Below, one piece after another: positions 19,715-22,484 of a DNA stretch of 33,490 bases. The stretch covers positions 1 through 33,490 of the forward strand of contig JAURGC010000008.1 of assembly GCA_030833985.1 (NCBI GenBank), in the 5' to 3' direction. How positions within the stretch are numbered: the stretch's first letter is position 1; the number at the start of each line of letters is the position of its first letter. The notes beneath the pieces were generated by a model. It saw only the letters and a program-made list of their open reading frames with translations, did no database searches and was not told the origin of the DNA. The stretch comes from Algoriphagus sp. Lineage in GTDB: Bacteria > Bacteroidota > Bacteroidia > Cytophagales > Cyclobacteriaceae. The translations under genes were made by a program, and so were the position numbers.

Positions 19715-20707
19715 ATGCGTGCTTTTATTCTCCTTACCGTACTCTTTTTTTGCCTTCCCTGGGCTCCCTTATGGGCACAGGATCAAAAAATAGTAGCCGA
19801 TACAGTGATTATTGAACGAGACACGCTTGTCCTTTTGGGGGACTCTCTTTTGATCCAACGACCAGTAAAAGAAACCTTTTGGAAAACTGGGGGAACTTAT
19901 ACCCTAAACGTTCAACAAGTCACGTTAAGTAACTGGGCAGCAGGTGGAACAGGCTCTTTTGCCTTAAATACTGGAACCACGCTTTTTGCCAACTATAAAA
20001 AAGACAGCAAGGTTTGGGACACCCAATTGACTATTAATTTGGGCTTTAACCGGCAAAATGAGCGTGCTTTCAAAACCCGTAAAACCAACGATAATTTTAT
20101 TTTCGTAAGCAATTATGGTAGGCAGCTGTCTGAAAAATACTTTTTAACCACACAATTGGATGCCCGAACCCAATTGGCAGGAGGGTATAAATATTCCAGA
20201 CCCGCAGGTGCTGATCAAGAGATACGTACCAAAATCTCTGATTTACTTGCCCCAGGCTATTTACAATCCTCCACGGGAATCAACTACAAAAAAACTTTTG
20301 ATGACAAGAGTCGCCTCTCCATCATTTTATCTCCATTTACAGGACGATTTACGCTTGTATTGAATGATTCCCTAAGCCAAGCAGGCGCTTTTGGGGTCCT
20401 CCCTGGAGAGACTGTTCGTGCCGAAGCCGGAATGTCGGTAGCAATAGGCGGAGTCGATGTCAACTTACTCGAAAATGTAACTTGGAAATCAGATCTCAAC
20501 TTATTTTCAAACTACGAACGATTTGGTAACCTGGTAGTCAACTTCAACTCGCTGATTCGAATGAAGGTCAATAAATACATTTCAACTCGAATTGAAACCG
20601 TTCTCATTTACGACGAAGAGGTGTTAATTAAACAAGACGATGGCAGTAGCAAACAGGCAATCCAATTCCAGAATTTAATCAACTTTGGAATTTCTGTGGA
20701 TTTTTAA
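19715..20707 (+). CDS. DUF3078 domain-containing protein (predicted outer-membrane or periplasmic)
   Basis: This 330-residue protein has a signal peptide (MRAFILLTVLFFCLPWAPLWA, cleaved before QDQK). The mature chain is dominated by alternating beta-strands with aromatic ends (for example WKTGGTYTLNVQQVTLSNWA, then repeated strand-turn-strand units to the C-terminus VDF), as expected for a DUF3078 protein of Bacteroidetes. DUF3078 looks like a beta-barrel or beta-solenoid and has no assigned function. The C-terminus ends in Phe, as do many outer-membrane proteins. The gene is 16 bases behind the lytic transglycosylase gene, and its stop overlaps the dnaX stop on the other strand by four bases. 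No terminator lies between the two convergent genes. Confidence 0.83.
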   Translation: MRAFILLTVLFFCLPWAPLWAQDQKIVADTVIIERDTLVLLGDSLLIQRPVKETFWKTGGTYTLNVQQVTLSNWAAGGTGSFALNTGTTLFANYKKDSKVWDTQLTINLGFNRQNERAFKTRKTNDNFIFVSNYGRQLSEKYFLTTQLDARTQLAGGYKYSRPAGADQEIRTKISDLLAPGYLQSSTGINYKKTFDDKSRLSIILSPFTGRFTLVLNDSLSQAGAFGVLPGETVRAEAGMSVAIGGVDVNLLENVTWKSDLNLFSNYERFGNLVVNFNSLIRMKVNKYISTRIETVLIYDEEVLIKQDDGSSKQAIQFQNLINFGISVDF

Positions 20708-22484
20708 AAATCAACGTCTAGGTCAAATTTCCGCTGCAGCTCCATCAAGGCTGGGTGCTTCTCTACCAAAAACTTAAGTTTGTCCGTACTAGTATACAAT
20801 TTACCATTTTCATTTGGAGCTTCCTCCTGTTGAATAACCGTGATGGTAAAGATACTTGCACTGGTAAACTTCCGCACCAAACTAACCAGCTCAGGCTTCA
20901 TTTTTAAAGCAATATCCTCTTGAATAGAACCATTTACTTTGAGGATAAGCTCTCCTTCCTGAACTTCAATTTTTTGGTCTAGAATCGCAAGTTCTAGATT
21001 TTTTTGAGCAGCTCGATAAACTTCTTGAATGGAAAAAATGGATTGGTCTAGCAACTCTTGCGTCAGCACAATCGCTGTTACAGGCTCTGAGGCGGTCTCT
21101 ATTGGATCTTTTTTCAACTCCTCTTCCGCAAGATTTAGCTCTTCTAATTTTGTCTCTCCCACTTTCTTAGTTTGGCCAAAACTACTTGGAATGGTGAAGG
21201 TGGATCGAAGAGTGCTGGAAGCTACTGGAGAAGAATTGGAAATAGGGGCAGAATCTTTAGAAGGATTTACTGAAGGTATATCCGTCTCCATGGATTTAGA
21301 AATCAAAGGAGGGGTGTCTGCAGGAGCAGGTGATTCAATCAGGCTTTTTTTTTTACTTCTAACTCAGCTAGAGTGGCAAGTCGAAACGCTTGATTCAGTT
21401 TGGCCACCTTCATTAAGGTCAATTCCACATGCAGACGCTGATTCTTGCTGGTTTTGTAGTGAATATCACATTGGTTGGCCAAATTTAAAGCCGAAAGAAG
21501 GAAAGAAACAGAAGCCTTGTTTGTTTGCTCTAGGTAGCGTCCCTTCACGGATTCAGAAACTTGGAGTAATTCTACGGTGGCTTCATCTTTGACCACCAAG
21601 AGGTCGCGAAGGTGTTCGCTCAAACCCACAATAAAATTATGACCATCAAAGCCCTTTTTGAGAATTTCATCAAATAACAATAGCGTGGTGGAAATATTCT
21701 CCTCCAGGAGTGCCTCAACTACCTTAAAGTAGTAGTCGTAATCCAAAATATTAAGGTTGGCGATAGTCTCCTGGTAGGTTACCTTCTTCCCTGCAGAGTA
21801 AGTGACGATTAGGTCAAAGATGGACAGTGCATCCCGAAGGGCTCCATCAGCTTTGGTAGCAATCAGGCGAAGTGCTTCTTCTTCGTAGTCCACCTCTTCC
21901 ATGCCAGCAATGTATTTGAGGTGCTCGGCGATGTGTTTAATTTGAATTCGGTTAAAGTCAAATATCTGGCAACGGGAAAGAATAGTCGGGATGATCTTGT
22001 GCTTTTCTGTAGTAGCCAAGATAAAGATGGCATACTTGGGAGGCTCTTCCAACGTCTTTAAAAAAGCATTGAAGGCGGCGGTAGAGAGCATGTGCACTTC
22101 ATCGATGATGTAGACCTTGTATTCTCCTTTTTGAGGAGCGTACCGTACTTGTTCAACTAAGTTACGGATATCGTCAACCGAATTGTTGGATGCGGCGTCC
22201 AGTTCGTAGACGTTAAATGAAGCGTTGTTTTGAAAAGAAACGCAGGCATCACAGGTACCGCAAGCTTCAAAGTCCTTGGTAATGGATTCGCAGTTGATCG
22301 TTTTGGCAAGGATACGTGCGCAGGTGGTTTTTCCTACTCCCCGAGGTCCACAAAAAAGAAATGCCTGGGCAAGGTGCTTGTTTTTGATTGCATTCTGAAG
22401 GGTGGTCGTGATGTGCTGCTGCCCTACGACACTCTTAAAATCTGCAGGTCTATATTTTCTTGCCGAAACAACGAAATTCTCCAT
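20704..22484 (-). CDS. dnaX: DNA polymerase III subunit gamma/tau, two frames joined at an A10 slippery run
   Basis: DnaX is the ATPase core of the clamp loader that puts the beta clamp on DNA. From the ATG at 22482-22484 the protein has Walker A GPRGVGKT at about 46-53, four zinc Cys (65, 75, 78, 81), the DEVH box at 128-131, and SRC sensor sequences. The zero frame ends at 21339-21341, right after ten A (21345-21354), giving a 381-residue gamma-like product ending VKKKA. A -1 shift in the run opens a frame reading SLIESPAPADTPPLISKS, then continues to 20704 and yields about 593 residues. That tail has a Pro/Ser-rich linker and a Bacteroidetes-type tau C-terminal domain (about residues 490-590). 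The frame upstream of 22484 is open but not homologous. The alternative is a homopolymer indel in the assembly: eleven or eight A would fuse the frames. Confidence 0.88.
21345..21354 (-). other. A10 slippery run in dnaX (candidate programmed frameshift or transcriptional slippage site)
   Basis: The minus strand has ten consecutive A (ten T on plus) flanked by GT and GCC TGA. Zero-frame ribosomes stop two codons after the run, whereas a gain of one A or a -1 slip restores reading into the tau C-terminus. No strong stimulatory stem or Shine-Dalgarno was recognised near it, which favours RNA polymerase slippage over E. coli-type ribosomal frameshifting if the site is functional. Confidence 0.6.

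Follow-up and report, generated by a model that had tools for sequence, protein, structure and literature searches.

How can one dnaX gene provide both the gamma and the tau form of its product if the reading frame closes before the tau part is reached? Tau is the form which links polymerases together at the replication fork. The question is raised by a locus of Algoriphagus sp. (assembly GCA_030833985.1, contig JAURGC010000008.1) located in the window, i.e., the whole analysed stretch of 33,490 nucleotides, where the two parts of dnaX occupy different frames of the minus strand around ten consecutive A. The site is composed of the following features:

21339..22484, minus strand: dnaX zero frame encoding the gamma form, 381 aa plus TGA, with the AAA+ ATPase, the lid and domain III
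21345..21354, minus strand: proposed A10 slippage run, its first A being the third base of gamma codon 377
21339..21341, minus strand: TGA closing the gamma frame, the second codon past the A10 run
21335..21337, minus strand: stop codon TGA of the third (+1) frame close behind the run, this frame having an open length of 1 codon
20704..21351, minus strand: C-terminal region of tau, lying in the -1 frame; from 21351 on it has 215 codons and then the stop

Reading of the minus strand at the site gives GTA AAA AAA AAA GCC TGA, with the run spanning codons 377-380, which bears out a previous sequence-only reading of this DNA, in which the zero frame was said to end two codons past ten A. The gamma start at ATG 22484 is backed by homology, since the alignment of relatives begins at residue 1. 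The tau (-1) frame is open through the A10 run as far as TAA 20706-20704, and the full product obtained with one extra A has 593 aa, so that the sizes of about 381 and 593 residues given earlier agree with arithmetic on the sequence. In the gamma part, the Pfam families DNA_pol3_delta2/AAA, DNAX_ATPase_lid and DNA_pol3_gamma3 (residues 248-366) were found, TIGR02397 scores 432.8 bits, and residues 1-366 match positions 1-365 of PRK14971, the NCBIfam model of DnaX; the A10 run lies shortly after domain III. Residues 57-214 of the tau part match positions 459-614 of the same model (E 7.2e-10) with 38.3 bits, far below its whole-protein cut-off of 685 bits. Together with the open frame, this match confirms that the -1 frame holds the tau C-terminal part down to 20704, as the sequence-only reading had it, and the AAA+ module, the lid, domain III and the tau C-terminal region are thus all found at dnaX. 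The tau part has no Pfam match at E 0.1, and the sub-cut-off match to PRK14971 is its sole NCBIfam recognition; for this reason a split dnaX such as the one with its tau part at 20704-21351 may appear in annotations as two entries, a truncated dnaX and a hypothetical protein. Generally, automatic annotation may label such genes truncated, split or pseudogenes.

We suggest that gamma and tau are very probably produced from this single gene by programmed transcriptional slippage at A10. RNA polymerase would slip on the run, giving mRNAs with 9, 10, 11 or more A. The unslipped A10 mRNAs (also A13 and A7) would be read to the TGA and yield gamma of 381 aa, those lengthened by one A (A11, and likewise A8 and A14) would enter the -1 frame and yield tau of 593 aa, and the third-frame mRNAs would end a few codons on, resulting in gamma-like proteins. 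Since slippage by any number yields all frames, each non-tau frame should end soon. In the window, both of them end near the run (TGA 21341-21339 and TGA 21337-21335).

One alternative is an indel in the homopolymer, introduced by assembly or sequencing into a gene whose true form is a single frame. It is favoured by the state of the window's genome, a 2.6-Mb draft in 229 contigs which is 82% complete. Against it, the survey of 72 genomes of the genus (G047, G048, G061 and G066 are without a usable site) revealed the identical -1 split at the A-run in 68/68 Algoriphagus loci, own genome included, with A10 in 64 of them and A11 in 4. Five of these loci (L013, L040, L044, L046 and L054) are from genomes listed as one contig. 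The zero-frame stop and the tau frame are both conserved, and in the 30 genus loci fetched first the flanking codons vary while the ten A are constant. Since the split is conserved across the genus, chance and assembly error are excluded, and we assign a negligible probability to the indel. The homopolymer caveat of the sequence-only reading is thereby removed; single-frame relatives without the A run, named there as the refuting case, were sought within the genus, and the opposite was found.

Another alternative is fission or decay of the gene, after which gamma alone would be made or the tau domain would be translated from an internal start. A TTG at 21306 does open an ORF, although no conserved ATG position (ATG being the sole start codon considered) was found in the tau frame among 70 genus rows, and an internal ATG start was rejected. 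The tau frame is, moreover, open back through the run and under purifying selection in the genus: the dN/dS of the tau part is 0.03-0.24 in 8 of the 9 computable genus pairs and 0.45 in the ninth, where dS is 0.05, while two further pairs are saturated. Fission or decay is therefore considered very unlikely.

To place the locus in a broader context, we extended the search to 118 genomes of the family, 148 of the order, 149 of the class and 148 of the phylum, with one named collection of 80 loci in addition. The loci read, relative to the matched genomes, amounted to 68/72 for the genus, 86/114 for the family, 66/132 for the order, 76/158 for the class and 30/109 for the phylum, and 51/80 loci of the named collection were kept after removal of duplicates. 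In total, 411 loci were read, of which 377 are distinct (34 duplicates were removed; L001 is out as a copy of L002). They comprise best matches and 198 regions picked by place, often one per genus or family, and do not represent a prevalence survey. Among the 377 distinct loci, 215 are split in the -1 direction, 145 are fused and 7 are split in the +1 direction, while 7 run off the contig and 3 are short; subtraction of the last two categories leaves 367 classed genes.

A run of A ≥ 9 is present at the site in 331/377 distinct loci of this phylum-wide sample. By architecture, it occurs in 213/215 genes split by -1, 108/145 fused genes, 7/7 genes split by +1, 3/7 off-contig loci and 0/3 short ones. 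By kinship, it occurs in 68/68 loci of the genus, 85/86 of the family, 56/66 of the order, 68/76 of the class, 16/30 outside the class and 38/51 of the named loci. The architecture is thus scattered over the phylum and is not particular to this Bacteroidota lineage; its kind was described as early as 2013. Relatives with a single frame do exist, yet 108 of them keep the A run, so a single frame alone does not refute the slippage.

The length of the run is rather uniform: among the 331 loci, A10 is present in 281, A9 in 23, A11 in 23 and A12 in 4, and length 10 is found whatever the codon phase and in all sampled GC bands (0.28-0.67). In genes with GC ≥ 0.55, the run is present in 12 (A10 in 11) and absent in 8. 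Within the 367 classed genes, 336 A9+ runs are located in the 400-nt linker, compared with about 33 expected there from composition, while the longer core has 4 and the tail has 3. In the window's own genome, A10 gives 20 overlapping matches (16 distinct runs) versus about 209 matches estimated from the dinucleotides of the window alone, and only two of the 16 runs, one of them that of dnaX, have a position deep within an ORF. A counter-point is that the lysine-rich linker makes A-runs likelier. Nevertheless, judging from these counts, an A-run at least 8-9 long appears to be kept at dnaX by selection.

The run is not universal, since 37/145 fused genes and 14/30 loci outside the class are without A ≥ 9. 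Among them, L117, L148, L150 and L367 from the same order or class have a fused dnaX without a linker A-run of 7 or more, and these lineages may have lost a slippage-made gamma form.

The expectation that each non-tau frame ends soon can be followed in both architectures. Among the fused genes that have the run (108), the median distance to the stop is 2 codons in the -1 frame (10 at control positions) and 5 codons in the +1 frame (11 at control positions). Most p-values ignore kinship, and the trustworthy test is the one restricted to a single gene from each family (n = 36), in which the median stops are at 2 (-1) and 3 (+1) codons with p of 3e-10 and 4e-7, respectively. In the 37 fused genes without A ≥ 9, which include the genes with A7 considered below, the mean rank at a fixed offset is 0.34 for the -1 frame (a weaker effect) and 0.49 for the +1 frame (no effect). 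Where a split gene has the run (220 genes), the gamma frame is closed 1-8 codons past the codon holding the last A, and the third-frame stop comes at a median of 3 codons.

While the run stays, the frame encoded beyond it changes repeatedly. A FastTree phylogeny of 204 run-bearing loci requires at least 37 changes between the fused and split states, the mean for shuffled labels being 62. With weak branches collapsed, at least 19 (support < 90) or at least 12 (support < 95) changes are left; these counts are lower bounds, as the polytomies were resolved in favour of few changes. On the 375-row tree, which includes nearly all loci, the fused/split state changes 41 times, and the presence of the run changes at least 21 times; therefore, the run too is often lost or regained. 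Among the loci with the run, more than one architecture occurs within 15/56 coded families and 3/197 genera. The closest differing pair, L398 and L399, has a 99.1% identical gamma core, one gene being fused with A10 and the other split with A9, and this difference may be an assembly error in one of the two. On balance, the run appears to be kept more than the frame: the encoded frame flips and the run mostly stays. Seven split genes have +1 as their sole long frame past the run; it extends for 184-311 codons, and the assignment was made from its length and by eye.

These data bear directly on the alternative in which the mRNA is faithful and tau results from a programmed -1 shift of the ribosome at those A_AAA_AAA heptamers that are in phase. 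Any run this long holds such heptamers, dnaX of E. coli works in this way (PMC5009743), 215/222 splits are in the -1 direction, and the 58 nt downstream of the run in the window fold well (z -2.67). However, the seven +1 splits are out of reach of a -1 shift, which also offers no reason for early stops in both alternative frames of the fused genes or in the third frame of the split genes, and the run is mostly 10 long, not 7, whatever the codon phase. The stimulators are not conserved either. The downstream fold of the window (z -2.67 and -3.27 in two calculations) is not repeated in its relatives, the mean z over the 68 genus loci being -0.4 with 3% of them below -2, and a conserved stem-loop was rejected as a feature of the site. 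Over 150 genes, the mean fold z is -0.43 downstream, -0.52 upstream and -0.05 in a control stretch. An upstream Shine-Dalgarno (SD)-like stimulator was rejected as well: its tetramer occurs in 110/327 relatives, slightly more often than in synonymous resampling but near the 95.1 expected, and SD sequences are not recognised by Bacteroidia ribosomes (PMC9976891). At the window site, A_AAA_AAG is not in phase, and A_AAA_AAA is the sole in-phase heptamer type. Because of the +1 splits, the third-frame stops, the length of 10 in all phases and the lack of a conserved SD-like or stem-loop signal, we favour transcriptional slippage and regard the ribosomal shift as improbable for this gene.

The situation may differ in some relatives. 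Eleven Pontibacter loci (L215, L217-L222, L224, L229, L236 and L237) and L120 have a fused dnaX with only A7. These genes have one in-phase A_AAA_AAA and stops 2 (-1) and 3 (+1) codons on, and in Pontibacter, a clade whose run is shortened to A7, ribosomal frameshifting may be at work. A_AAA_AAG is present at the site in L119 (fused) and L312 (split). In the metagenome-assembled genomes of Arcicella (L242) and Cytophagales (L251), the A-run is replaced with G_GGA_AAG directly before TAG (4140-4149 in L242), and just upstream of it CCCGCC and GGCGGG are able to pair (4117-4149 in L242, and likewise in L251). The -1 frame after G_GGA_AAG extends for 204 codons in L242 and off the contig end in L251. 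In these two, the site may have turned to a shift made by the ribosome or aided by a hairpin.

The earlier proposal that two DnaX forms are made by slippage at the A run is the best explanation of the locus; the slippage, its efficiency, the existence of both proteins and their work in the clamp loader are what we infer from comparison. Since flips of the encoded frame are tolerated, slippage at A10 is suggested to be heavy enough to give tau and gamma from either frame. A broader supposition, which we consider fairly probable, is that the control element of dnaX in Bacteroidota would be the run and not the frame. With A10 kept in any codon phase, transcripts in each of the three frames would arise at similar levels. 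The choice between tau and gamma as the frame written in the DNA would then be nearly neutral and would have flipped dozens of times, and RNA polymerase, not the ribosome or the encoded frame, would determine the tau:gamma ratio. Gamma would then be conserved in most of the class, while the A7 Pontibacter, L119/L312 and L242/L251 would have replaced slippage with ribosomal shifting.

Several known systems resemble this locus in part. Antonov et al. (2013; PMC3711429) described dnaX in two ORFs for 17 genes from 12 genera, all in the -1 direction; nine of these genes have 10 A, for which transcriptional slippage was suggested, and the species with 10 A are given in a supplementary figure. The window is like this set in having gamma and tau in two ORFs, the -1 transition and the A10 run. 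In contrast to the set, where all shifts are -1, here the run is traced through fused, -1 and +1 forms together with the stops in other frames. The same authors consider orthologues with both shift directions as a mark of transcriptional slippage, and our seven +1 genes beside the -1 genes represent, by sequence comparison, exactly this case. As far as these sources go, the two-ORF dnaX with 10 A was thus already known in 2013, and what appears new is the phylum-wide run kept across fused, -1 and +1 forms. Among titles and opening lines of the mostly open-access literature, a phylum-wide dnaX run with flipping frames was not found.

In Thermus thermophilus dnaX, slippage was measured at A9 (PMC1088944, PMC5009743). 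It shares with the Bacteroidota genes the A-run, the near stops in both other frames and two expected products. Its tau is in the zero frame, as in the 108 fused relatives with the run, but not in the split gene of the window, where gamma is the zero frame and slippage would be needed for tau; besides, slippage was measured in Thermus and is deduced here. Escherichia coli dnaX (PMC5009743, PMC3711429) is also one gene for gamma and tau, with an A-rich shift site and the -1 direction. However, it combines A_AAA_AAG and tau in the zero frame with an upstream SD-like and a downstream stem-loop stimulator, which are not conserved here. In Blochmannia, genes with frameshifts in poly-A tracts include dnaX, and restoration of the frame by slippage was proposed (PMC3017870), which is a further likeness. 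There, however, the shift is inside the tau-specific part, and the AT-biased symbiont genomes have more than 100 long poly-A tracts in genes, whereas the run studied here is rare in its genome and kept at one place.

According to a review (PMC3290774), most other bacteria keep no dnaX frameshift signatures and may not make gamma. In our sample, a slippage-type run is present in 315/347 loci assigned to the window's class, with membership of the named loci read from titles, and this argues that making of a gamma-like form is probably under selection there. The result bears on the importance of gamma outside a handful of model bacteria. In addition, the dnaX genes of Bacteroidota offer a “natural experiment” in which polymerase slippage may be told from ribosomal frameshifting by comparison alone.

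A side locus of the same genome, L422 (G000:C85:2619-2629), has an A11 where, by Pfam, a GH20 hexosaminidase meets a sodium:alanine symporter within one open frame of 954 codons. The query from this locus is unbroken in its own and 16 other genomes of the genus, while elsewhere it is found in two pieces, some of them within one long open frame. Of the 17 loci inspected, counting that of the own genome, only 3 have the A11, so this run is not an old element.
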